Positions 602-25,969 of a stretch of DNA of 64,000 nucleotides are shown piece after piece. The DNA is from Bacteroidia bacterium (GTDB lineage Bacteria; Bacteroidota; Bacteroidia; J057): NCBI GenBank assembly GCA_033391075.1, contig JAWPMV010000001.1, forward strand, positions 1,426,001 through 1,490,000, given 5' to 3'. The notes under the pieces are model-generated. The model was not told the origin of the DNA and made no database searches. It saw only the letters and a program-made list of their open reading frames with translations. The position numbers and the translations under genes were made by a program. How positions within the stretch are numbered: position 1 is the first letter of the stretch; every line of letters begins with the position of its first letter.

Positions 602-2587
602 TTAGGTTATTTCTTTTTTGTGGTCTGGATTGACGATGAAAATGTTTGTTGTGTAGGCAATCCAGGAAGCATTGGGTTGGGCATCTGGAGCTTTTTTAAA
701 TTTAAACTTTCTGTGCCCGGACTCATACGGAGTAGGAAGTGCGTTCTGCTCTACATCATTCAAGTCAAAAGGATCCAGGGATGCCACCAGGAGGATATGC
801 TCCTGGCTACCGGCCCATTTATCCAGATAAACAAACTTCTGCAATGACATGCCAATTATGGCCCCTTCTCCAACATGGTAGTTTCCTCCAGATGGGATTA
901 ATATACTTTGTGCACCAAGCATATTTGAGATCCCGAATGATCTGGTCAAATAGGTAAGACTTACGTATAAGTCTTTAGAGCTTCTATTATAGAGTGTCAT
1001 TTGCACATCAAGAAATCGGTCATAGCCTTCTCCCTGATTTAAATTAAATATATACTCTTCTCCCTCCTCTTCTAACTTCTGGCTATTTCCTAAAGAGTCA
1101 TAGCTGGTAATAAGCAATTCTATAGGTTTACCTTGCCATTTAGGATCAAGACCTTGCTGTAAATTTGTCTTTGGATTGTTGATTTGTTTTACAAATTCCC
1201 AGTTTGCTATTCTACTTAATAAGAAGAGCAAATAATTGGCTGATACGGATTGTCTAATAGTGGTGGGAAGTACAAGATCTTTTTGGTCGAAGGGTAAACA
1301 GATTTTGTATTCTTTCTCCGAAAATCTGACGCTGTATTTTGCCGCCGATTCTTCGCTAACAAATTCTATATAATCCGAACCAAGGATATCTTTCATTTCT
1401 TCCTTGACCTCCATTATTATCTTTTCAGCTTGCTCTTTATGGGTGTCAAGAAAGACCGGTAGGGGATTGATCTCAATTTTCACCTCACATGGATAGGATT
1501 GGTCTTGATTAAGTTCCCATTCATTTTTTACCTTAATCACAGAATGTGCGGGGAAAACTTTGCTCAAATGGGTGCTAAGTTTTTCTTTCTTTTCTTCTCC
1601 GACGTAAATATTGCAGGGCACAGCTCTTGCTAAAGTGTCGATCCCGTGAATAGATCCCATACCAATCACCCAGCCTTCACTTGGATTATAGGTAATTTGA
1701 CTTTGATAAGGTTCTGGCTCTATCTCTGCCCCTAAAAAGCCTCTGTGTTTTTTGCCAGAATCTTCACTATTAATGAAAAACTGAGGGGTTTGCTTTTTAT
1801 TTTCCCATGACCGCAAGTAATTTCTGATCTGTGATTGCAGAGACTTGATACTAATGTTTGGGCCGGATTCTTTTAGAATTCTTAGAAGAGATATACTAAA
1901 TAGGCCACCGCTTTCTCCTTCTTTGTCTTTGGCTTCCCAGGCAACTTCAACATTCCTGCATGCTGACATATGAACAATTCTGGGGAGAGGAATTACCTCT
2001 GGTAAAGCTTTGCTCTGAAGGTCCTCAATATTTAGCTTGTCGTGAAAAATAAAACCTTTCCAATCTCTTGCTTTTATGGCATCACTTCCGAACTTCCTGA
2101 CACGATCAACTCCTGAAAATCTTGTGCTTTCTCCGGAATGACAACAATCCGTAATAAAGTAAATGTCTGAACCTTTTTGATTAAGCTCCTGGATCAGGTA
2201 TCGCACCTCTTTATCTGCCAAACAAGTATATGAAGCTTCCTGACTCCTTTCCGGATCAGAATTATAGCAAAGGAAAGTTTGTAAATTTTTAGTGTTGCTT
2301 GCTTGTTGAAAAGCTTTAATCTCTGTAGCCTCCTCAACTCCATGCCCGGCAAAATAAAAGAGACTTATATCCTCTGGGCCTGCCTTTCCTAAATGTGTCT
2401 GGATACCGTTGACAATATTGTCTTTGCTTGCCTCTTCATTTCTCAGACAAAGGATCTCGGAATTGAGATCTTCCCGTCCTTTTAGATAAGCCTCCATATT
2501 GCTAATGTCATTAACACATCCTTTCAGATCAGAGGCATAGGGATATTCATCAATCCCAACTAAAAGAGCAAAGAGTTTACGGGCCAT
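602..2587 (-). CDS. Caspase-family peptidase A (C14), 661 aa
   Basis: Cytosolic caspase-like cysteine peptidase; no signal peptide. The caspase fold occupies roughly residues 1-225, opening with 'KLFALLVGIDEYP'. The catalytic His is H82 in FAGHG and the catalytic Cys is C149 in DCCHSG, so the dyad is intact. The remaining 430 residues match caspase B (18002-20137): both carry a 'NW/HWxFVxxxxNPK' stretch near the middle and a beta-rich C-terminal block with 'LYVSLTYL' and a final 'NPD'. This block resembles the DUF4384-like tails of other bacterial caspases. The open frame extends to 2722, but I chose the ATG at 2587 because the caspase fold starts right there and the upstream part contains a perfect hairpin. 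The operon 3031-6165 lies upstream on the same strand. Substrate unknown. Confidence 0.85.
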   Translation of the reverse strand: MARKLFALLVGIDEYPYASDLKGCVNDISNMEAYLKGREDLNSEILCLRNEEASKDNIVNGIQTHLGKAGPEDISLFYFAGHGVEEATEIKAFQQASNTKNLQTFLCYNSDPERSQEASYTCLADKEVRYLIQELNQKGSDIYFITDCCHSGESTRFSGVDRVRKFGSDAIKARDWKGFIFHDKLNIEDLQSKALPEVIPLPRIVHMSACRNVEVAWEAKDKEGESGGLFSISLLRILKESGPNISIKSLQSQIRNYLRSWENKKQTPQFFINSEDSGKKHRGFLGAEIEPEPYQSQITYNPSEGWVIGMGSIHGIDTLARAVPCNIYVGEEKKEKLSTHLSKVFPAHSVIKVKNEWELNQDQSYPCEVKIEINPLPVFLDTHKEQAEKIIMEVKEEMKDILGSDYIEFVSEESAAKYSVRFSEKEYKICLPFDQKDLVLPTTIRQSVSANYLLFLLSRIANWEFVKQINNPKTNLQQGLDPKWQGKPIELLITSYDSLGNSQKLEEEGEEYIFNLNQGEGYDRFLDVQMTLYNRSSKDLYVSLTYLTRSFGISNMLGAQSILIPSGGNYHVGEGAIIGMSLQKFVYLDKWAGSQEHILLVASLDPFDLNDVEQNALPTPYESGHRKFKFKKAPDAQPNASWIAYTTNIFIVNPDHKKEIT

Positions 2588-2630
2588 GGATTTTTGTGTT
2601 AAGCGGGCATTTAAATAAGAGTGAAAATAA

Positions 2631-2657
2631 TATGCACGGATAAAAAATCCGTGCATA
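2631..2657 (-). promoter_or_regulatory. Perfect hairpin in the leader of caspase A
   Basis: An inverted repeat TATGCACGGAT / ATCCGTGCATA (11 bp stem, 5-nt A-rich loop) lies 44-70 nt upstream of the chosen ATG at 2587. No T-run follows on the minus strand, so it is not a typical terminator. It could be a leader hairpin controlling expression or an operator for a dimeric regulator. The hairpin is seen directly; the role is inferred. Confidence 0.45.
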
Positions 2658-2807
2658 TAACTCCTAACAATAAGCTTTTCCCAAATGGGATTTTTAATAA
2701 AGAACGCTGAGCGTAGACTCAAAGAATAAACTTTGTCTTTGTCTTAACTCAGGTACAAATTGTGAATTAATCCCAGGAGATGCCCTACACGTATTCCGTT
2801 TAAGATT

Positions 2808-2825
2808 CTAAGGGTTTTCCGTAGG
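2808..2825. promoter_or_regulatory. 18-bp motif, copy 1 (shared with 6252-6269)
   Basis: The 18-mer ctaagggttttccgtagg occurs here, 221 bp upstream of the caspase A start, and again at 6252-6269, 87 bp upstream of the operon encoding the sensor kinase and response regulator. Both copies have the same orientation relative to the minus-strand genes they precede. It is a good candidate binding site for the NarL-type regulator encoded between the two copies, linking the two transcription units. This is inference from an exact repeat. Confidence 0.45.
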
Positions 2826-2978
2826 TTTTTAAACTATGCGTGTACGTTTTGTGGCAATTTTACCTAGAGAGTAACCATTCAGCTTTAATATAACATAATT
2901 TCCGTAAATTAAAATAGTAGGGGATTGTGAAATAAGTCAAATTTTTCCAGGAAAAATCTGAGCCATTTAAAATGGAAA

Positions 2979-3011
2979 TTCCCCGACTGTATTGGATGTA
3001 CAGACGGGGAA
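2979..3011 (-). terminator. Terminator-like hairpin after the response regulator
   Basis: ttccccg and ctgta pair with tacag and cggggaa around a 7-nt loop (one A-A mismatch), 20 bp beyond the stop codon of the response regulator. It separates the two-component operon from caspase A. The downstream T-tract is weak. Confidence 0.55.
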
Positions 3012-3030
3012 GCATTGAAGTGTGGTGTAT

Positions 3031-3717
3031 CTATATCATGTTGTACTGGTAAGCTAAGGCAATCATATGAGGTGCATTACGAGCATTGAGTTTGCGCATG
3101 ATGTTTCTACGATGGGCTTCAACACCATCTTCACCCTTACCTCTTTTATCCGCAATTTCTTTGGTAGTTAGTCCTTCTGAAATCAATTGAAGTATCTCTT
3201 TTTCGGTAGGAGTAAGCTTGGGGATTTCAATAATACCTGTATGCTCATAGGAAAACTGATCCCATGCTTCGGCTATTTCCCCCCGGAAATATCTGCGTTT
3301 TCCAATACAGATACCTTCAATCGCTTCAAAAAGGATATGAGAATCCGCATCTTTAGCCAAATACCCATGAACCCCCATTTTATGAGCCAGGTCGATCAGA
3401 TATCCATCTACCAATTGGGTCATGATCAGAATTTTTATTTCGTTCACCCCTTTCATATATATTTCTTTCAGAATCCTCCGGGCCGTAGTAAGGCCGGCTG
3501 GTTCTTCCGTATCCGCCTCCTCCATGCGAAGGTCCATGATAACAAGGTCTATATCCTGACTGCTTTCTCTCAGGTATTTCAAGGCATCTCTTCCGCTGGT
3601 TGAGATCGCTTTGACATCCATATTTTCGCGTTCATTTATTAGTCTACTCAGAGACTCTGCCAGGATCTTATGATCATCTACAATCATGATCCCTAAGTTT
3701 TGTACTGTGTTGGTCAT
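3031..3717 (-). CDS. NarL/FixJ-type response regulator
   Basis: Two-component DNA-binding regulator of 228 aa. The receiver domain (about residues 8-130) has the acidic pair D14-D15 and the phospho-acceptor D62 in 'VIMDLRM'. A LuxR-type helix-turn-helix (about 165-225) contains 'LTPTEKEILQLISEGLTTKEIA'-like sequence, typical of GerE domains. The linker between them is long. It sits 15 bp after the histidine kinase gene and is surely its partner. The gene downstream is caspase A, which makes it a plausible target together with the operon itself (see the 18-bp motif). Confidence 0.93.
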   Translation of the reverse strand: MTNTVQNLGIMIVDDHKILAESLSRLINERENMDVKAISTSGRDALKYLRESSQDIDLVIMDLRMEEADTEEPAGLTTARRILKEIYMKGVNEIKILIMTQLVDGYLIDLAHKMGVHGYLAKDADSHILFEAIEGICIGKRRYFRGEIAEAWDQFSYEHTGIIEIPKLTPTEKEILQLISEGLTTKEIADKRGKGEDGVEAHRRNIMRKLNARNAPHMIALAYQYNMI

Positions 3718-3732
3718 CGATTCTTTATTGTA

Positions 3733-5733
3733 TTAGCCTGGGATTGAAATTTCCATAAATAAGGTGCTACCTCTTCCCGGTGCAGTATCCAGGGTAAAGG
3801 TTCCATTGAGTTCTTCTGTCCTTGAGCGCATTGAGTCGAGGCCAACTCCGTGCTGTATCTTTTTGGGATCGAAACCTTTACCATTGTCCTCGACGGTTAT
3901 GCTGAGGATACGATCAGCCCAGTCCAATTGCAATTGGATGTCCGTCGCCTGCGCATGCTTGATGATATTGGTGATAGCTTCCTGGATAATGCGGAAAATA
4001 TGAAGTTCATGTTTTGCTGGAAGTTTGACACCTTCAAGCCGATAGGTATTGAGTTCTATGTTGGGTGAGTTTTCGATGCGATTGATGTTTTTGCAGAGTT
4101 CTCGCAAAGAAGGGATGAGTTGTTCTTCGAGGGAAAGTTTATCTGGAGATTTAGAGATCTTTCGCAGGTCGCGTATGGCTTTGTCGATCATCCCATACGA
4201 ATGCTCAAATTGACTCTCTGCCTTATTGGGAATTTCTACTAGGTTATTTCTGAGGTTTTCCAATTCTCGTTTGGCTGCAGACAACATAGAACCAATGCTG
4301 TCATGCAGTTCCTTACCGATGGAAGTCAGGAGCATCTGTTGTTTGGCACTTTGATCTGCGAGGATTTGTTGTTCTGCCTCTTCCAATTGAGAAAGGAGGT
4401 GTTGCATGTGATTGGCTTCCTGGTTTTCAATGATGATCGCCTGATATTTTTGTTTTTGATAGGAATTGTAGAGAATCATTGAAAGCAGAGCACTAATCAG
4501 GACTCCTCCAATAAGGATTCCGAGGGAGAGTCTTTTTTGGTATTTGTTTTCAAGTAGTTTCTCTTGAACGGTAGATTCCAATTTGTACATCTCATTATCA
4601 TCTTCCAATTGGGCTTTATTGGTTTCCAGATAAATTACCGTATTGAGTTGGGTCCTTTCTTTCAGGTAGAAATTGGCTTCCGAATTTTTACCCAATGCCT
4701 CATAAGCTAAGATCAGGTTGTCATAGAGGTTGAGAAGTTGGCGTTTATCTGAATTGGCTGCGGATTTTAATTTTTCTGCTTTTTTGAAATTTGCCAATGC
4801 TGCCTGAAAGTCTTCTCGGTCAATTGCATTATCTCCCATATTGATAAAGGCGATAAAGGAGTTTAATGAATCAAAAGCTATTTGATTTAACTCAATAGCT
4901 TTTAGGTGATAATCAGTGGCTTCATGAACTTTCCCTGACTCTGAATATATCAAGCCTTTTCGGGTATAAATATCTGCCAGCTCCCGTAAATATTTTGTCG
5001 AATCGCTGGCACTAGAATTTTCAAGCTGGGCCAAATTAATTTTTTCAGCTTCATTAATGGCGGAAATTGCTTGATCGTATTCTCCCAGGGCCCTATAGAC
5101 TGAGGAGATCATCATGGACGCATCGGCATATCGCTTGGGATTTTCTAATTTGCTCCGGTCCATGGATTCTTGATAGTGGAAAATAGATTCTTGGAAATCA
5201 CGTTTCGCCGAATCAAGATTGAAAACACTTTGTTTCCTCAAGGCAAGGTTTTTATAGGCAATTCCCAAATCGATATGAGCTTCATAAATCCATTGATTTA
5301 CCTCTATTTCTTTGCGGATTTTTAGTGCATCAGTTAAATGAATGATCGCACGGGCATACAAATTCTTGTCTTTATAGGTGTTTCCAATACGCGTGTAAAT
5401 TCCGGCAATGCCACTTTTTGACAGTCCTGAAGCTTTTCGAATTTCAAGGCTTTTTTCAAAAAAATGGATGGCTGAATCGAGTCTTCCCTGATTTCTGGAT
5501 ACTATGGCCAAACGAGTGAGGGCAAGGGCTTTACCTTTCGGGTATGAAATAAGGTCTGACTCTGCCAGTACTTCCTTTGCAAGAAGTACGGCAGAGTCAG
5601 GTTTTTCTTCCACCATATCGAATGCCTTTCTATTGAGCGCATCTATTCTTTCTGTTTGCGCTGTAGTTTGTGTCCAAGCACTTTGCAAAAAGAAACTCAG
5701 AAAAAAGCCTAATATGAAGAAATGTTTTTTCAT
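3733..5733 (-). CDS. TPR sensor histidine kinase (HisKA_3, NarX/DesK-like)
   Basis: Membrane sensor kinase of 666 aa. Order of parts: signal peptide (ends near 'QSAWTQ'), periplasmic TPR repeats over about residues 30-390, one membrane helix near 403-423 ('LGILIGGVLISALLSMILY'), a coiled coil, the dimerisation/phosphoacceptor helix with H477 in 'KELHDSIGSML', and a C-terminal ATPase domain with 'EDNGKGFDPKK' and 'GVGLDSMRSR'. This class of periplasmic-TPR kinase with a LuxR-type partner is common in Bacteroidota. It is 15 bp upstream of the response regulator and 3 bp downstream of the 142-aa gene, so all three are probably co-transcribed. Signal unknown. Confidence 0.93.
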   Translation of the reverse strand: MKKHFFILGFFLSFFLQSAWTQTTAQTERIDALNRKAFDMVEEKPDSAVLLAKEVLAESDLISYPKGKALALTRLAIVSRNQGRLDSAIHFFEKSLEIRKASGLSKSGIAGIYTRIGNTYKDKNLYARAIIHLTDALKIRKEIEVNQWIYEAHIDLGIAYKNLALRKQSVFNLDSAKRDFQESIFHYQESMDRSKLENPKRYADASMMISSVYRALGEYDQAISAINEAEKINLAQLENSSASDSTKYLRELADIYTRKGLIYSESGKVHEATDYHLKAIELNQIAFDSLNSFIAFINMGDNAIDREDFQAALANFKKAEKLKSAANSDKRQLLNLYDNLILAYEALGKNSEANFYLKERTQLNTVIYLETNKAQLEDDNEMYKLESTVQEKLLENKYQKRLSLGILIGGVLISALLSMILYNSYQKQKYQAIIIENQEANHMQHLLSQLEEAEQQILADQSAKQQMLLTSIGKELHDSIGSMLSAAKRELENLRNNLVEIPNKAESQFEHSYGMIDKAIRDLRKISKSPDKLSLEEQLIPSLRELCKNINRIENSPNIELNTYRLEGVKLPAKHELHIFRIIQEAITNIIKHAQATDIQLQLDWADRILSITVEDNGKGFDPKKIQHGVGLDSMRSRTEELNGTFTLDTAPGRGSTLFMEISIPG

Positions 5734-18001: not shown

Positions 18002-20137
18002 ATGTCCCACCTTCACGCCCTGCTGATTGGAATCGATACGTACGCAGCAAGTAATGAAATGGATCAATTGAAGGATCTATCTGCTTGTGTTAATGATGTA
18101 AATAATTTTGCAAATTATTTGTCATTGAGTCTTCCCCGAGAAAGACTAATTGTCGAAAAACTGATCAATCAAGATGCTACCAAACAAGGAATTGAGGATA
18201 AAATTCGGGAATTTTTTCTTAGCGATAATCGCCAGATATCAGATGAGGATACTCTTTTATTTTATTACTCGGGCCATGGTTGTCAGGAGGAAGCAGATCC
18301 TGGCTGGAAGGAGAAAGACAATCAGCTGGAAGCCCTGGTCTGTCATGATACCTATGTGAATGGTACCCCTCCCTTTTCCGACAAAGAATTGCGCTATTTG
18401 TTTCATTTGATTTCCCTTCGAACAAAGGCAAGAATAGTTCTGATTACCGATGCTTGCAACTCCGGGGGGTTGAGTCGGGATCTTTCACAACTGACCAATC
18501 GTTTGGGTCCACAGGCAGGAGTAAGACCCTGGGATCAATTTCTTTTTAGCACGGGAGAACATGAGCCCACGGTGAGTAAAGCTGTATTGACGGACACCAA
18601 TTTGCTTGAAACATCCCTTCCTGAATCTATCCATATCCACATGGGAGCTTGTGAGAGTTATCAATCTGCATTTGAGGTTCCTGGCCAACAAGGGGTTTTT
18701 TCCAAAAATTTGCTACATATTCTGGAGCAGACTCAGGATTCCATAAGTTTTCGGGACCTTCATGCAAGGGTCAGGTACCGAGTCAGGCAAAAATACAGTC
18801 AATTTCCCACCCTGTATGCGAAGGGATTGAAAAAAGATCAAATTATTGTTCATGATTTGCTTGATGGGACATTTTTGACGGGTCTGGAATCTCAACGCAA
18901 AGTTTTGGCAAATGTTTTCAAACAACATGGGAAGTGGAGATTGGACAAAGGAGCTATACATGGAATCCCTCCAAAACAGGCAGTACAAAAGCTAAACATT
19001 CAGATCCTGGACGATACTGATGAAACCTTTTCTCTGGGTAAATTGAAAGAAGTAAAGCCTGCTTTTAGTGTTATTGATTCTGTAAATCCTGAAAACCTAC
19101 AAGTAAGAAAGCGATTAGGTACGGGTCCAAAGAAAGAATACCAAGCCAGAATCAGTGGATTGTATAATGATCCATTAGTTATTTATATAGGCGGAACGGA
19201 TAGGTTGATTGCCGACCTCAAAAGCCTCCTTGATGAAGCTAGCATCCAAGTGCAACTTCAGGAGCTGAATATCGAATGGGTAGATGACCCTATGGAGGCT
19301 AGCTATCAATTACTAGCATCAGAAGAAGGATACACCCTAACTCATGCAGGCGAAACTCTGGCCAAGAAGGAAGATTTTCCTCTGTTAGACCCAATTCGCA
19401 GAAATACGGCAAATCTTGCCGAACAACTATTGCGCTACCTTTCCCATATTGCCCATTGGAATTTTGTGAGAGCTCTTCATAATCCCAAACCTAAAACTAA
19501 TCTGAAAGAGGTTTTAAAATGGGAATTGATTTGGCAGCCTGCTTTGGGAGATCACACCAAGGATATAGCGATGCAAGAATACCTGGAGGAAATCACCTTC
19601 AACCCAGATAAAGAGGCAGAAGAAGCAAAATTGCCAGATCCTTTTGAGTATCCAGACTGGGAAATTGAATTAGCAAAGCCCCGCTTGGATGAAGAAGCCT
19701 TTGGATACTTGCGTCTGTGGATTCAAAACTTGTCAGAAAAGCCTTTGTACATAAGCTTACTCTACATGGGGCATCTTTTTCAGGTGAATTCAAGAACTAT
19801 GCCTAGACAAAAAGAGGTTGTAAGACTAGGCGGGAAGGAAAAAATTTGGGGCTTGGGCAATGAAAGCATAGGCTCTCCTGTGTATTTTCGTCCATATGAA
19901 AGGGATAAGCGTAACCGGGGGCAAATGTTTTACCTTAAATTAATTGTCAGTAATAGCCCTTTTGAATTGTCTGGAAGTCTCAACCAAACCCGATTGCCGT
20001 TTCCCGGGGAAAATCTAGCCAAAGACGGAATAAAGCAAGAACAAGGGCCTGTTCAAGGCTATCCAGACGGTGCTTTTTGGCTAACAAAAATACTGAGGAT
20101 ACGTGTGCTTAATCCCGACTACCAAGCTAGCCCTTAG
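18002..20137 (+). CDS. Caspase-family peptidase B (C14), 711 aa
   Basis: Cytosolic caspase-like peptidase and paralogue of caspase A (602-2587). The caspase fold (about 1-235) begins 'HALLIGIDTYAA'; catalytic H92 lies in 'YYSGHG' and C152 in 'DACNSGG', so it should be active. The C-terminal 450 residues share with caspase A the 'LSHIAHWNFVRALHNPKPK' region, the 'LYISLLYMGHLFQV' block and the end 'VLNPDY'. It starts 140 bp from the divergent patatin gene and ends 38 bp before the giant caspase gene, so caspases B and C are probably one operon. A role as the protease of a suicide or immune module is inferred. Confidence 0.88.
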   Translation: MSHLHALLIGIDTYAASNEMDQLKDLSACVNDVNNFANYLSLSLPRERLIVEKLINQDATKQGIEDKIREFFLSDNRQISDEDTLLFYYSGHGCQEEADPGWKEKDNQLEALVCHDTYVNGTPPFSDKELRYLFHLISLRTKARIVLITDACNSGGLSRDLSQLTNRLGPQAGVRPWDQFLFSTGEHEPTVSKAVLTDTNLLETSLPESIHIHMGACESYQSAFEVPGQQGVFSKNLLHILEQTQDSISFRDLHARVRYRVRQKYSQFPTLYAKGLKKDQIIVHDLLDGTFLTGLESQRKVLANVFKQHGKWRLDKGAIHGIPPKQAVQKLNIQILDDTDETFSLGKLKEVKPAFSVIDSVNPENLQVRKRLGTGPKKEYQARISGLYNDPLVIYIGGTDRLIADLKSLLDEASIQVQLQELNIEWVDDPMEASYQLLASEEGYTLTHAGETLAKKEDFPLLDPIRRNTANLAEQLLRYLSHIAHWNFVRALHNPKPKTNLKEVLKWELIWQPALGDHTKDIAMQEYLEEITFNPDKEAEEAKLPDPFEYPDWEIELAKPRLDEEAFGYLRLWIQNLSEKPLYISLLYMGHLFQVNSRTMPRQKEVVRLGGKEKIWGLGNESIGSPVYFRPYERDKRNRGQMFYLKLIVSNSPFELSGSLNQTRLPFPGENLAKDGIKQEQGPVQGYPDGAFWLTKILRIRVLNPDYQASP

Positions 20138-20175: not shown

Positions 20176-23100
20176 ATGGATATATTTACGGCAGATCAAC
20201 GGAGTGGTATAGACAAAAAGCCCATACTTGACCAATGGGCCGTAGTCATTGGTATATCTACATACAAAGATTCCAAAAGGCCCCCAAAAGGAAAAGATCA
20301 GGAGGCGGTAGGGCTCTCTCCAGCATTTAATAGGACCATTAATCCCTTGGAATTCGCACATACTGACGCCCGTTCATTTAAGGAACAATTGGAATCAGGA
20401 AGATGTGGCTCCTTTAAAGATATCAGATACCTCGTCAATGAAGACGCTACTACCCGAAACATCCTATCAGCCCTCCGGACCTTTCTTAAACAACCCAAGG
20501 CTGAGGATCTTGTCATCATTTATTTTTCAGGACATGGGGTTCCGGATGAAGCCCGCCCTAGCAACAACTACTTTCTGACCTATGATACAGAAGCCGAAGA
20601 TATTCCAGGGACTGCTTTGCACATGAGTGAGATAAAGCAATGCATAGACGATACCCTGCTTGCCGAACGGATATTGGTTATTATCGACTCATGTTATAGC
20701 GGAGCTGTGATAGATACCTCCGGAAGGGCCGCGATCGTAACCCAAAAAGTGAAGAGTGGAGCTTCCTCAGGAAGCGGGAACAATGAATTACTGGGGAAAA
20801 TGATTATTGAGAGCAAACCAGGAATTACCTGGCTTGCCTCTTCTCAATCCGGTCAAAAATCTTTGGAGGATGCAAAGTGGGGCGCAAAAGGGGAGGATGG
20901 TAAACCCATAGGTGGTGGAGCTTTTACACATGCGCTAATTGAAGGAATCAATGGGGCTGCCGATGGATATCTGGGAGGAGGTAATTATGGAAAAAAAGAC
21001 GGTATAGTATCTGTAGGAGAACTGAGCATATACGTTAGAGACAAGGTGGTCGAATTGACCAACACCCAGCAAGAGCCAACGACCATAAGTGGTACCCACG
21101 ACATGCCCATTTCCTACACAGGAGGGCTAGACACTCAACTGCATTTTAAACTGGGAAAATTACTTATGGAAGTAGGTAATAGAAGCCGCGACCTCGAACG
21201 GTACCTATCTGCATATTGGCATTTCCGGAAAGCTGTTCAGTTGTATAAAGGCAAGAAGGAAGAATCGCAACTACAAAAAGAACAATACCTGTTATGGCAG
21301 GCACGTGCATTGAGTGCTGCGGGTAAGTGGGAAGAAGCAGAACAAATCTTTGCAAAAATCTATTTGGACCGAAAATCGGCAGATGTCTTATTCCTAAAAG
21401 GCTGTATGCAATTGCTCCAAGGCAAGAGAGATGAGAAAAAATTGCTGGAAGCAGCTGAAACACTTAAACAATTTGGCAATCAATATCCTGAACATGAGAA
21501 ATATGCCTTTGCGAAGGTTTTAGGAGAGGTCCTGGTTAAAAAAGCGCAGCGAGGGAAAATTTATGCCTTCCTGCTGGGGGTTGACAGCTATAAACATTTT
21601 GGCAATTTAAAGGGACCTTTGAATGATGTGGAGATTATGAAAGAAGCACTTAGTACTTTTTGGGAGGATGTAGAGATCGAAGTGCTTCTAGGGGAAAAGG
21701 CAAACACACATTCTCTGAAAGAGAAGCTTACTTCCTACGCCCGATCACTAAGCATAGAGGATACCTTTATTTACTATCATACGGGAAGAGCCTTTCATGA
21801 GCCTTTCCTGCTAGACGATTACAATTCCGCTCCTGATGCACCGTATATCCCATTATTTGCATCTAAAATTGATAGCCATCCTAAAACAGGTGAAAAAGTA
21901 TTTGAAGAAATTGTATATGCCCGTCAATTTCATGAATACATCAAAGGAATTCCGGCTAAATCAAAAATTCTTATTTTGGATCATTGTCATTCTCCAGCTT
22001 TTCTGGAACTGGTAGAAAGCGAAGGGGATTATTCGGTCTGGTCAGCAGCAATAGAGGGACAATTTGCTAATGAGAAAATTCTTGAAGGAAAACTAAATGG
22101 GGTATTTTCCTATTCTGTGTCTAAAACCTTAAAAAGGTTTAAAGGGAAAGAACAAGAAGATTCTTTTAAAGAAGCATTTTCCCGAGAAGTCGAAAAAATT
22201 GTGAAAAAGGAGACTTCAAATCAGGATCCCCAGTTTATTTGGGCTCCTGGATCCTTCCCTTCAGAAAGTCCACTAGATAATATCTATGACCTGGTAAATT
22301 TTACCTATGGTGCCAATACCTATTATTCTTTTTCCAAACTTCAAACTTTCTCTAGTTTACTGCCTGATACACCTGTTCTGGATGTCTACAAAAAGCTGAT
22401 ACAATCCTACATGGATCAAGATCCCCTAAAGGCTATGCGATTGGCATCAGAATTAGAAGCGATAGGTTTATTGGATGATGAACTTCATTTGAATTTGGTT
22501 TTGCTCAATCACGGCAAATTTAATTTTTCTAAGGCAAAGGAGCATTTGGACATCTATCTTCAAACTAATGATGGAAGCCATACCGCTGAGCAAGCCCTGG
22601 CAAAATTGTATAAAGAAAGGCATGAAGTCAAAAAACGAGCCTTATTGGTAGGCGTAGACTGCTTCGAAACTAAAGAAGGGGAAGAGGCAATCGGTGAAGA
22701 TCTAACAAATACTATTGATTACCCCAGAAGGTATAGCGGTCAGGATGAAATCCTTCGGGATGTAGATATATGGAAAAAATTGTTGGAAGAATTTGGCTTT
22801 AAAGTCAAGGTCTTGAAAAATAAAGCTGCGAGTCGAAATGAGATTGAGACGGAATTTAAGAAATTGGTGGAACACGCTGAGCATGGTCCGGCTGTTTTCT
22901 TCTATGCAGGATATTGTTCCCATGAAGTGAGACGAAAAAGCATGACGAGGTCTACCGATAAGAAATTTAAGTTCAATAACGATCACAAAGTTAAAGGGAG
23001 TATTCTGAGCTACGATGTTTTTTTAGATCATGTCCAGGATATCAGCTTCTTGGAACTGGCACATATGGCCAAGTCAGCCAATCATTTAACCACGATCATT

Positions 23101-25275
23101 GAAGCTGGTCTTATAAAGGGTTCAAGAAGATATATAGACCCCGATGTGATTACTGGTACTTCCCAAAGTAAGGGTTTGATGTTCGAAGAGGATGAATCTG
23201 ACCTGGAGGATCGTATAATAAGGAAGTTCCAGGGAAGTTCATTGCGCCTTCGCAATAATTGGCTTAAATTTCTCCAAATTGGCAACGTAAGTGTTTTTTC
23301 GGGCGGGACTATCTCAAAAGCTTATTCCGCTAATTCTGGACTCTGGATTGAACTCGTAGGCCATGAGATACAAGATGAGCAAGAACCCTTTCCCGAGAAT
23401 CGAGGAGGAGGGATTATGACAGCTTTTCTCCAGAAGATTTTAAGCCAGGAAGGTCAAAAAGGATCAAGGGAACCCTTATCCTTGGAAACGCTTAGTAGAC
23501 AGGTGAAGAGATTGAAAAAGCAAATTCCAAATTCCCTGGACAATCAGAAATATAAGTATTTCTCCCCCATTATTTTGGGGCCTAAGAAGGCGGCTTTTGC
23601 GGGATTTGTGGACTTAGGAGTTGATGAGATATTTGAAATCAAAAACAAAAGCCTGAGGTTGGCCAAAGATGAACTGTCAAAACTCATAGCAAAATTAGAG
23701 TCCAATGAAAGACTTTCAGTTACCCAAATCGATTTAGGAGTCGTTCATCACTTATTGGGGGAGCGTTACCAGCTGGCTGATAAGCATGAAGAAGCAAAAC
23801 TACAATTTGAGAAAGCAGAAATAGCGTTTAAGAAAGCCATCGCCAATGAGGATGAAAAAGCCAACTTTCCCATGGGAAGATTATTGGTGGATGCTTTCAA
23901 AACATTCAAATATACTTGGACTCAATCCCTTAGTTTTTTACGAAAGGCGAATAAATTAGAACCTTCCAATCCTTCTATCAAATACTATTTGGCTACTGCC
24001 ATGAAAGGAGAAATAGAAGAAGAACGTGAAACGGAATTGATTACAGCTTTTGAGTCCTATTTAAAGGCAGGCGCACCTATGGGAAATCGGGATCGGGTAG
24101 TGGAAAGTTTGAATGAACTTGATCCCAAAAGGAAAAAGATAGCATTGATAGAAAAGGGAAAGAAGAGCTTGGAATCCGGGAAGCATAAAGACCTGAAAGA
24201 AGGTATTAAAGCCTTTGAAGAAGCTATCGAGTTGGGAGATGAAAGCTCTTTCGTTTTTCTGGGGCAGGCATACGAAAAACAAAAGGACTATGTTCGAGCG
24301 GTTCAGGCCTATAGTCAAATGAAAGAAGTAGACCGTAAAAAACCGGAACACAAAAAACGCATGGGTTTCGCCATCCAGCAACTCTTTCATGATAAATCGC
24401 TCCTCTTGGAAGGAATTTCTTATTTGAATATCCACGAGCTCGATGCTGAAGAGAAAAGCATTAGGAGAAGATTGTTGGATTCTTATCAATTGTTGACCAG
24501 CGTGGAGGGAGTTAAAACCTATGATTTCTTAGCGAAACACTTTGAGAACAGAGCAACAAGTTACCTGAAGGCCCTGGGCTCAGATTTCCCCCCAAGAACA
24601 ATGAATGAGCCAAGTATCAAGGCATTTGGGGATTTCCTGAAAAAGTATCAAAATGTAGAAACTCTGGTAGAAAAGCGAGTAAACTTGATCCTAAAAGGGC
24701 AAACTTCTCCTGCGCTTCCGGAATTTGATACCTTCGAAGACCCACGAGTAAAACCTGGCTCCGAGAGCTCGGAAAAATACCGTACACTTGTTCTCAATGG
24801 GCTGATATGGATGGCAGAAGATATGAATTATGAAACAGAAGAGGGATCCTGGTTAGTTGAAAATGAGTACGGTTCATACAGCAGGCTCTATACTTGGGAA
24901 ACGGCTATGAAAGTATGCCCACAAGGATGGCGTCTTCCCAGCGACGAAGAATGGAAAAGTTTGGCCGAATCTTTTGGCGAAAAAATGGATGGAGGATGGG
25001 AAGAACCTTATGCTCAACTAATCGACGGGGGATTGACGGGTTTCAATGTTAAACATGCGGGTTGGATGGAAGAAGAGGGCATCCATAAAGGAATTCAAAC
25101 CGAGGAGGAACATGCCAAATACTGGACAAGTACGGACTTCAAGGAAGATACAAGCCAAGCAATGGCTTACGTATTTAAGAAAATAAATGGGAAAATGTAC
25201 AGAGGCAAAGACTCAAAAACCAAGGGTTTTGCATGTCGATATGTGACAAACATAGCTCAAATCACCCTTCGGTAA
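20176..25275 (+). CDS. Giant triple-caspase protein with TPR-like regions and FISUMP domain, 1699 aa
   Basis: Cytosolic multidomain protein. Caspase fold 1 (about 20-320) is intact: H120 in 'YFSGHG', C173 in 'IDSCYSG'. TPR-like helices follow (about 330-450). Fold 2 (from 461, 'AFLLGVDSYKHF') keeps a Cys (C604 in 'LDHCHSPAF') but has HTGR where SGHG is expected (535-538). A helical stretch follows, then fold 3 (from 819, 'ALLVGVDCFE'), which has AGYC at the His motif (Y913) and EAGLIKG at the Cys motif (G978), so it is catalytically dead. TPR-like repeats fill about 1150-1530. The C-terminus (1536-1695) is a FISUMP domain: 'GLIWMAEDMNY', 'LYTWETAMKVCPQGWRLPS', 'KYWTSTDF', 'GFACRYV'. The dead folds may be sensing or docking units. 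Third caspase gene of the window and 38 bp after caspase B. Confidence 0.88.
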   Translation: MDIFTADQRSGIDKKPILDQWAVVIGISTYKDSKRPPKGKDQEAVGLSPAFNRTINPLEFAHTDARSFKEQLESGRCGSFKDIRYLVNEDATTRNILSALRTFLKQPKAEDLVIIYFSGHGVPDEARPSNNYFLTYDTEAEDIPGTALHMSEIKQCIDDTLLAERILVIIDSCYSGAVIDTSGRAAIVTQKVKSGASSGSGNNELLGKMIIESKPGITWLASSQSGQKSLEDAKWGAKGEDGKPIGGGAFTHALIEGINGAADGYLGGGNYGKKDGIVSVGELSIYVRDKVVELTNTQQEPTTISGTHDMPISYTGGLDTQLHFKLGKLLMEVGNRSRDLERYLSAYWHFRKAVQLYKGKKEESQLQKEQYLLWQARALSAAGKWEEAEQIFAKIYLDRKSADVLFLKGCMQLLQGKRDEKKLLEAAETLKQFGNQYPEHEKYAFAKVLGEVLVKKAQRGKIYAFLLGVDSYKHFGNLKGPLNDVEIMKEALSTFWEDVEIEVLLGEKANTHSLKEKLTSYARSLSIEDTFIYYHTGRAFHEPFLLDDYNSAPDAPYIPLFASKIDSHPKTGEKVFEEIVYARQFHEYIKGIPAKSKILILDHCHSPAFLELVESEGDYSVWSAAIEGQFANEKILEGKLNGVFSYSVSKTLKRFKGKEQEDSFKEAFSREVEKIVKKETSNQDPQFIWAPGSFPSESPLDNIYDLVNFTYGANTYYSFSKLQTFSSLLPDTPVLDVYKKLIQSYMDQDPLKAMRLASELEAIGLLDDELHLNLVLLNHGKFNFSKAKEHLDIYLQTNDGSHTAEQALAKLYKERHEVKKRALLVGVDCFETKEGEEAIGEDLTNTIDYPRRYSGQDEILRDVDIWKKLLEEFGFKVKVLKNKAASRNEIETEFKKLVEHAEHGPAVFFYAGYCSHEVRRKSMTRSTDKKFKFNNDHKVKGSILSYDVFLDHVQDISFLELAHMAKSANHLTTIIEAGLIKGSRRYIDPDVITGTSQSKGLMFEEDESDLEDRIIRKFQGSSLRLRNNWLKFLQIGNVSVFSGGTISKAYSANSGLWIELVGHEIQDEQEPFPENRGGGIMTAFLQKILSQEGQKGSREPLSLETLSRQVKRLKKQIPNSLDNQKYKYFSPIILGPKKAAFAGFVDLGVDEIFEIKNKSLRLAKDELSKLIAKLESNERLSVTQIDLGVVHHLLGERYQLADKHEEAKLQFEKAEIAFKKAIANEDEKANFPMGRLLVDAFKTFKYTWTQSLSFLRKANKLEPSNPSIKYYLATAMKGEIEEERETELITAFESYLKAGAPMGNRDRVVESLNELDPKRKKIALIEKGKKSLESGKHKDLKEGIKAFEEAIELGDESSFVFLGQAYEKQKDYVRAVQAYSQMKEVDRKKPEHKKRMGFAIQQLFHDKSLLLEGISYLNIHELDAEEKSIRRRLLDSYQLLTSVEGVKTYDFLAKHFENRATSYLKALGSDFPPRTMNEPSIKAFGDFLKKYQNVETLVEKRVNLILKGQTSPALPEFDTFEDPRVKPGSESSEKYRTLVLNGLIWMAEDMNYETEEGSWLVENEYGSYSRLYTWETAMKVCPQGWRLPSDEEWKSLAESFGEKMDGGWEEPYAQLIDGGLTGFNVKHAGWMEEEGIHKGIQTEEEHAKYWTSTDFKEDTSQAMAYVFKKINGKMYRGKDSKTKGFACRYVTNIAQITLR

Positions 25276-25276
25276 A

Positions 25277-25969
25277 TCAGGGTACCTCTTCGCCTGCATC
25301 CTCAAGGGCCTCATCGGTTTGATCGGAAGTTTCATCTTCGTTTGTTTGGGGTTCATCACTACTCAAACCGCCCTCGGTATGAGCTGAAGGATCTTTCTTA
25401 ACTTCTTCTGAATCCTTTTTCTTTTCCTCTGTTTTTGCATTCTCCGGTATACTAATCATACTGTCCTCTTCTTCTGTATCTAAGAAATCCTGGTAGAATT
25501 TAATGCTCTCGGAGATCGTTCTTTCTACATTCCCCAAAAATGCTTTCAGGGCATCTTTATGAGTCTGGAATTCTTTGTATTGATTGGTAAGGCTTAAGAA
25601 TGCAAAGCCTTCCTGTTTGATAAGGTGAGACTGTTGACGATAGAAAGCCCAGCGTTTCCGGTAATTGATCAATTGGTTAAGACCAGCAGCTAAAGCCGCC
25701 AGAACGCCCAAAATTGATACAATAATGTCCTGGGCAATTTCATTCAATAACGTATTATTAAGATTCGTGATAAAGGGAATCAGAAGACTCGCAACGAGGG
25801 CAGTGAGGTAATACCACCTAAATCGGTCTACGTCTCGCTTGGCTTTCTTTTCATAATCATCAATGGTATCCAGCCATCTAATTTTCAGAAGTTCTTTTTG
25901 AGAAGGCTCCAAGTCGAGTTGACTGACGTAGTTCCTGATTTCTTTGATTCTTGCGGGAGTGAGATCCAT
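25277..25969 (-). CDS. SLATT/DUF4231-like two-TM membrane protein with acidic tail
   Basis: Small predicted inner-membrane protein, 230 aa. An N-terminal helix (1-50) leads to TM1 (about 52-70) and TM2 (about 81-101). The segment after TM2, 'NYRKRWAFYRQQSHLIKQEG', fits the 'W..YR..ae.lk.e' motif of DUF4231/SLATT proteins, which are predicted pore-forming effectors in nucleotide-activated and other immune systems. Residues 165-230 form a Glu/Asp/Ser-rich, probably disordered tail. Its stop is 1 bp from the stop of the giant caspase gene, so the two transcripts overlap at their 3' ends. The pore-forming role is inferred from the family. Confidence 0.75.
   Translation of the reverse strand: MDLTPARIKEIRNYVSQLDLEPSQKELLKIRWLDTIDDYEKKAKRDVDRFRWYYLTALVASLLIPFITNLNNTLLNEIAQDIIVSILGVLAALAAGLNQLINYRKRWAFYRQQSHLIKQEGFAFLSLTNQYKEFQTHKDALKAFLGNVERTISESIKFYQDFLDTEEEDSMISIPENAKTEEKKKDSEEVKKDPSAHTEGGLSSDEPQTNEDETSDQTDEALEDAGEEVP

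Follow-up and report, generated by a model that had tools for sequence, protein, structure and literature searches.

A protein of 1699 aa, encoded at positions 20176 to 25275 on the forward strand of the window (the 64,000-nucleotide stretch of Bacteroidia DNA that was analysed), carries one caspase fold with a complete catalytic dyad together with two caspase folds that are without the dyad. The gene is a single ORF with zero internal stops, and its open frame measures 1704 aa, which therefore leaves no hidden longer start for the protein. Pfam and TIGRFAM-type profiles, along with reading of the ORF, give the domain order live caspase, TPR, dead caspase, linker, dead caspase, TPR and FISUMP. 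This layout, with a live fold, two dead folds, TPRs and a FISUMP domain, is new, and none of the other genomes searched has it. It is rare for one chain to hold a live caspase copy and two dead ones, and the combination may represent a built-in control device.

Three caspase folds and their catalytic residues

It had been proposed in a sequence-only reading of this DNA that three caspase folds lie in a row, and this is confirmed by Peptidase_C14 (PF00656), which matches three stretches in the whole protein (111.9 bits), with fold 1 as the best stretch and with folds 2 and 3 each over the cut-off when scanned alone. Fold 1 covers residues 20-305 (20233-21090, + strand, as are all features of this gene) and contains the dyad residues H120 (20533-20535) and C173 (20692-20694), as that reading had stated, as well as the pocket aspartates D64 and D171. 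D64, H120, G121 and C173 are invariant across 55 aligned caspase proteins, the 1699-aa protein among them. With a His-Cys dyad and a pocket Asp, fold 1 has the residues of an active orthocaspase, and it can be regarded as a putative protease.

Fold 2 covers residues 463-686 (21562-22233) and on its own matches PF00656 with an E-value of 1.9e-7 over profile positions 3-223 of 233 (31.5 bits, cut-off 21.4). It also scores 65.1 bits against a local profile built from 54 caspase domains, each with an E-value below 1e-15. An AlphaFold model (266 residues, 88 rows) has a pLDDT of 79.9 and a pTM of 0.80; the top Foldseek matches to this model are MALT1 and metacaspases, and VIA-align places it against Arabidopsis metacaspase 4 (6w8r_B) with a Z of 21.5 and an rmsd of 3.3 over 222 aligned residues. 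The segment had earlier been given as residues 461-760, of which the caspase fold is borne out and the boundary is not, as the fold ends near residue 687.

Fold 3, at residues about 820-1119 (22633-23532), has been recognized with less margin. When scanned alone it passes the PF00656 cut-off of 21.4 bits (29.6 bits, E 6.9e-7, profile positions 24-221 of 233), and its match to the local 54-domain profile is weak (18.1 bits, E 0.0088 per 100,000 sequences). The AlphaFold model (332 residues, 136 rows) has a pLDDT of 63.1 and a pTM of 0.66, with residues 978-1008 below 50. Its top Foldseek match is Geobacter GSU0716 (3bij; E 2.7e-6), and VIA-align against the same metacaspase 4 chain (6w8r_B) gives a Z of 12.5 and an rmsd of 4.1 over 223 aligned residues. 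MAFFT misplaced the Cys strand of fold 3 when aligning it to full-length caspases, and as a result the rows given to AlphaFold for this fold are a mixture of full-length, N-part and C-part sequences that leave residue 978 almost uncovered. Both models lean towards a caspase fold because their input rows are caspases, and the Pfam matches are independent of this. Structure prediction and profile comparison, the two checks that had been suggested for residues 461-760 and 819-1120, thus agree on a caspase fold for both segments, more firmly for fold 2 than for fold 3, and the outcome that had been named as a refutation, a segment without a caspase fold, did not occur.

At the residue level, T536-G537-R538-A539 of fold 2 align to the S-G-H-G motif, such that Arg538 (21787-21789) occupies the His site, and the profile puts C604 (21985-21987) at the Cys site. 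C604 stands in a D-x-C-H-S context, and the pocket aspartates D484 and D602 are retained. The earlier claim that fold 2 keeps C604 therefore holds, but the motif HTGR that had been set opposite SGHG is displaced in favour of residues T536-A539. With a changed dyad (R538 with C604) in a p20 fold, fold 2 is classed by its residues as a pseudo-orthocaspase.

The corresponding positions of fold 3 depend on the alignment. The His site is taken by Y913 (22912-22914) in MAFFT alignments, where 86 of 88 rows have His, and by H916 according to the local profile. The Cys site is ambiguous and falls at G978, near 960 or near 993 (960 or 993 in MAFFT), while the model, which is weak in the Cys region, places a strand at 985-993. 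Thus the original assignment of Y913 to the His position agrees with MAFFT and disagrees with the local profile, and that of G978 to the Cys position is one of three alignments. The only cysteines in this fold are C829 and C914, and the next Cys in the protein is C1581; with no Cys after residue 914, the dead status of fold 3 is therefore independent of which Cys-site alignment holds. Because the catalytic Cys is absent under any alignment, fold 3 is likewise assigned to the pseudo-orthocaspases on the strength of its sequence. With respect to its pocket acids, D862 is surely kept, and E976 is probably kept on the less certain profile alignment.

His and Cys were both kept in all 54 other caspase domains of the reference set, in which dead domains are under-represented because the domains were chosen by score. 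The two pocket aspartates of TbMC2, Asp95 and Asp211, are conserved in pseudo-orthocaspases (PMC6426788, in the portion available), and we take the columns of D64/D171, D484/D602 and D862/E976 to be the putative counterparts of these positions.

Distribution, FISUMP domain and neighbourhood

The host genome comprises 9.49 Mb in 5 contigs and contains 15 frames with 16 Peptidase_C14 matches among them; the 1699-aa protein accounts for two of these matches. Peptidase_C14 is present in 13/13 genomes of the family (own included), where the 1699-aa protein is the only frame with more than one match, and it is also the only one of 55 strong caspase frames from relatives to carry a second fold. At E 0.05, a second fold is absent from all 92 caspase frames in 79 named GTDB loci; these loci had been selected for an intact motif around the Cys or the His, and some of the proteins overlap with the 55-frame set. 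No other frame with two Peptidase_C14 matches was found in a set of 60 genomes that includes the host. Residues 690-1535 have no long match in 394 other sampled genomes of the class, with short matches in six, and a whole-protein search of genome contigs returned 28 pattern matches, none of them a relative; accordingly, no orthologue of the full 1699-aa protein was found in the genomes searched.

Internal duplication as the origin of the three folds gained no clear support: they are not each other's best matches, and in a FastTree of 57 domains they fall in different clades with weak support, with fold 3 placed on about 90 columns. There was no sign of a mobile origin, as no phage record matched and, of 28 plasmid records, the 15 listed have their match to fold 1 alone.

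A phylum sample of 296 genomes yielded one other two-match frame among the matches listed. This second protein (locus L213, 2314-4857, - strand; 848 aa) is from a genome of the same class and another family (G174), and by the local profile it has three caspase folds in the order dead, dead, live. Fold A (residues 40-292) keeps SGHG with the Cys replaced by Thr (71.1 bits in Pfam alone), fold B (residues 314-517) has lost the His and has Gly for Cys (17.3 bits, below the cut-off of 21.4), and fold C (residues 602-829) has an intact dyad (74.5 bits). Its N-terminus is signal-peptide-like by eye, no TPR or FISUMP match was found in Pfam, and the same stretch contains two more caspase genes. The two proteins are alike in having one live and two dead caspase folds per chain; they are unlike in the reverse order, in the substitutions (His-Thr and His-lost/Gly), in the signal-like N-terminus and in the lack of TPR and FISUMP matches. 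The folds of the L213 protein are not specially similar to those of the 1699-aa protein, and so their shared make-up looks independent in origin, albeit from two cases, which are few. A homology between fold 3 and fold B, considered on a shared E-A-G, is unsupported, as their pairwise z is 3.1 versus 2.8 to 3.1 for fold 3 against folds 2, A and C.

TPR-type repeats occur in two places and were missing from the earlier domain list. Those in the gap between folds 1 and 2 (residues 338-404; 21187-21387) are weak Pfam TPR matches below cut-offs, and those after fold 3 (residues about 1284-1389; 24025-24342) are over the cut-off, with TPR_2 at 30.8 bits against 27 when residues 1129-1531 were scanned alone. 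The C-terminal FISUMP domain (residues 1533-1691; 24772-25248), which had been recognized from the outset, passes both PF09603 (65.9 bits, cut-off 33.9) and TIGR02145 (85.9 bits, cut-off 41.65), and it is the single PF09603 match in the 9.49-Mb genome. A local FISUMP profile of 11 proteins, run on the overlapping sets of 55 and 92 caspase frames, matched the 1699-aa protein alone.

FISUMP had been described as known mostly from exported proteins, and this is consistent with 12 fetched FISUMP proteins, 11 of which start in a signal- or lipoprotein-like manner and one of which has an internal membrane helix (by eye). The 1699-aa protein has no evident signal or membrane segment. Its N-terminus is polar and its hydropathy maximum of 1.53 (19 residues) is at residues 161-179 within fold 1, so that by hydropathy it is not of the exported FISUMP type. 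Two FISUMP cysteines, C1581 (24916-24918) and C1687 (25234-25236), resemble the pair of exported members, which is odd in a protein with no evident export signal. FISUMP and the related DUF1566 are among the variable proteins of DGRs (PMC4159848, in part). A DGR-diversified FISUMP was rejected here, as the genome contains 0 RVT_1 matches and no template copy of the FISUMP DNA, for which a search of the genome gave, beyond itself, chance-level matches (best E 0.34).

In two relatives, a caspase gene adjoins a FISUMP gene on the same strand. In one (L201, 828-3899, - strand), the caspase gene (2451-3899) is followed 3 bp later by that of a 539-aa FISUMP protein with an unassigned, TIR-looking N-terminal domain and a membrane helix (both by eye), DUF1573 and FISUMP; in the other (L202), a caspase gene at 2461-5319 is followed by one for a FISUMP lipoprotein-like protein. 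Across the 60-genome set minus the host genome, a caspase match is found no more than 3 kb away from 2 of the 55 FISUMP places, versus 0.135 expected (P about 0.008), in a test that was run after both cases had been noticed and that rests on these two cases. For these counts, 62 FISUMP rows were merged by hand by frame into 55 places, and 133 caspase places were used after one piece of a split caspase (G012:C615) had been dropped. A separate Bacteroidales metagenome contig has three consecutive FISUMP genes beside two caspase genes (L148, 4861-8803, - strand).

Immediately upstream of the 1699-aa gene, 38 bp away on the same strand, is the gene for a 711-aa protein with one caspase domain (18002-20137, +; Pfam E 3.3e-23). 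No terminator-like site was found in the 38-bp gap, and the two genes are likely co-transcribed. Divergent from the 711-aa caspase is a patatin-like phospholipase (PF01734; 16644-17861, -), which scores 165.6 bits against NCBIfam CBASS_lipase, under the cut-off of 200. Convergent with the 1699-aa gene and 1 bp from its stop is the gene for a SLATT-domain protein (25277-25969, -), supported by PF14015 and by NF033634 SLATT_1 (73.5 bits, cut-off 41). Patatin-like and SLATT proteins are known conflict effectors; with one of each and another caspase next to it, the 1699-aa protein probably works in a pathway of cell death or conflict. A further caspase gene in the window (602-2722, -) encodes a protein that is related to the 711-aa caspase in its C-terminal part. 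The neighbourhood is known from one genome. Relatives of the patatin were absent from the other caspase loci fetched, which are short; the same search reached proteins of the size of the SLATT one in part, covering ORFs of at least 250 aa in the first set and, for the 79 GTDB loci, ORFs of 150 aa or more. No vWA or MoxR was found in the 1699-aa protein, the upstream caspase or 10 scanned neighbours.

Possible roles of the dead folds

The explanation that we favour, which we hold tentatively, is that the dead folds serve as non-catalytic modules that bind peptides or partners within a FISUMP-sensing single-chain protease. A non-catalytic binding role is suggested because the dyad has been lost while the pocket acids stay in folds 2 and 3. 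A sensor role is suggested because the pairing of an N-terminal caspase with a C-terminal C-type-lectin fold recurs, and because caspase and FISUMP genes adjoin in L201 and L202. In this scheme, the C-type-lectin-like FISUMP domain would bind a ligand or partner, and the TPRs, together with both dead folds, would form the transmitting and holding part, in which the dead folds may bind peptides or caspase partners through their retained acidic pockets without cutting. Ligand binding would then release or position fold 1, which would cleave its protein targets after basic residues. The likeliest specific form of this explanation would be that the two dead folds control fold 1 within their own chain. 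The L213 protein counts in its favour, as an unrelated protein that likewise joins a live fold to two dead ones; counted against a sensor-protease are the lack of an orthologue in the genomes searched, the odd FISUMP cysteines, the absence of diversity-generating machinery and a neighbourhood from one genome.

Other roles for folds 2 and 3 have to be considered. They could act in trans to bind or control the upstream 711-aa caspase or other caspases of the genome, in the style of cFLIP and caspase-8. The 711-aa gene is on the same strand across a 38-bp gap without a terminator-like site, and partners abound given 16 Peptidase_C14 matches in 15 frames; but the pairing of the two genes is known from one genome, and the chain has a nearer partner in its own fold 1. 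Action in trans is considered unlikely. A similarly low probability is given to a decoy function, where the dead folds would capture caspase inhibitors made by phages or other invaders and so spare the cell's live caspases. In bacterial conflict systems, inactive enzyme domains have been proposed to work as decoys, and inactive caspase domains to act in a dominant-negative or peptide-binding manner (PMC7159879, in the portion available), but the published systems have MoxR-vWA partners, none of which was identified among the 10 neighbours scanned, and there is no known invader inhibitor for this host.

We also consider it improbable that folds 2 and 3 are relics, i.e. decayed copies that act as mere spacers in a long scaffold. 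That no orthologue was found, that fold 3 is strongly diverged with a model weak in the middle, and that fold 2 has a codon-position-3 G+C of 0.31, the lowest of seven segments, would all be in keeping with decay. Set against this are the frame that is intact across 1699 codons, the pocket Asp retained though the dyad is gone, the codon-position-3 G+C of fold 3, which matches the rest, and the same make-up in the L213 protein. Lastly, fold 2 could be live if C604, kept in its D-x-C-H-S context, paired with another histidine such as H535 or H541, both of which are close to R538 in sequence; with His at the profile position in 54/54 other domains, this appears very unlikely.

The proposal of dead folds as binding modules of a sensor protease can be extended to a poly-caspase class in the Bacteroidota that has arisen more than once, in which a live fold would be controlled by two dead folds of the same chain, joined in the present case by a cytoplasmic FISUMP sensor. 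This broader claim is rather doubtful. If true, a poly-caspase with a cytoplasmic FISUMP would constitute a complete device for sensing, holding and cutting in one polypeptide.

Comparison with known systems

Inactive bacterial caspase domains, like proteins that combine a caspase with a C-type-lectin fold, are already published, and dead caspases as a novelty among bacteria are not borne out: of the caspase domains that occupy the effector position in vWA proteins of ternary systems, about 70% are reported to be inactive (PMC7159879, in part). Pseudo-orthocaspases have a p20 fold in which the dyad is replaced (YS, YN, YG, QC, HA and others) and the acidic pocket is kept, and YG has been reported for Synechocystis (PMC6426788, in part). 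Folds 2 and 3 are like these in their p20 fold, changed dyad and acidic pocket, and YG is the dyad read for fold 3, whereas the Arg-Cys of fold 2 is not among the dyads in the available portion of that paper. Each pseudo-orthocaspase described there has one p20 fold, aside from a published remark on a few proteins with several p20 domains, whereas the 1699-aa protein has two dead folds along with a live fold and FISUMP. With the exception of this multi-p20 remark, no description of dead and live caspase folds in one bacterial chain was found in a literature search. In the MoxR-vWA ternary systems, dead caspase domains in the vWA effector position have been proposed to act as dominant-negative or peptide-binding modules (PMC7159879, in part), which is akin to the binding role favoured here. 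The 1699-aa protein is unlike these systems in that no vWA or MoxR was identified nearby and in that a live caspase is part of the same chain.

The idea of a lectin-fold sensor draws on several reports (PMC7517822, PMC10907252, PMC8195603) and on caspase-FGE-sulfatase proteins of Haliscomenobacter. Orthocaspase-like domains have been described at the N-termini of cyanobacterial DGR target proteins (PMC7517822), and CLec sensors adjoin caspase-like peptidases (PMC10907252). On plasmid pHALHY02 of Haliscomenobacter hydrossis, all three proteins scanned have an N-terminal caspase and a C-terminal FGE-sulfatase domain. Three caspase and FGE-sulfatase genes lie in a row on this plasmid, followed by a SUMF1-annotated gene (L217, 5935-12326, +). 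The 1699-aa protein shares with such proteins the N-terminal caspase and the C-terminal lectin-fold domain, and differs from the FGE-sulfatase and CLec cases in having FISUMP and three folds and in a genome without a reverse transcriptase match. Judged by title, none of the papers found with a FISUMP term concerns caspases. The placement of FISUMP, which is usually exported, in an apparently cytoplasmic caspase protein fits the lectin-fold sensors proposed for conflict systems.

Separase contains a pseudo-protease subdomain, and an in-chain pseudo-protease of this kind is a nearer formal parallel to the 1699-aa protein than cFLIP, which is a separate chain. TPR-CHAT (Csx29) resembles separase (PMC9729208, in part), and both are like the 1699-aa protein in combining helical repeats with a caspase-like protease in one chain, and unlike it in that here the live fold comes first and the repeats lie between folds. 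Neither separase nor TPR-CHAT is among the best 50 VIA-align rows of folds 2 and 3, which is no evidence against either. Animal pseudo-caspases control live caspases, and cFLIP controls caspase-8. PMC8195603 (in part) makes mention of an inactive caspase domain. The likeness to cFLIP would be that of a dead caspase fold tied to the control of a live caspase, as may be the case in the 1699-aa protein; cFLIP is unlike it in being a separate chain with DED domains that acts in trans. With live and dead folds in one chain, and with the L213 protein as a second case, pseudo-caspase control in bacteria becomes directly testable.
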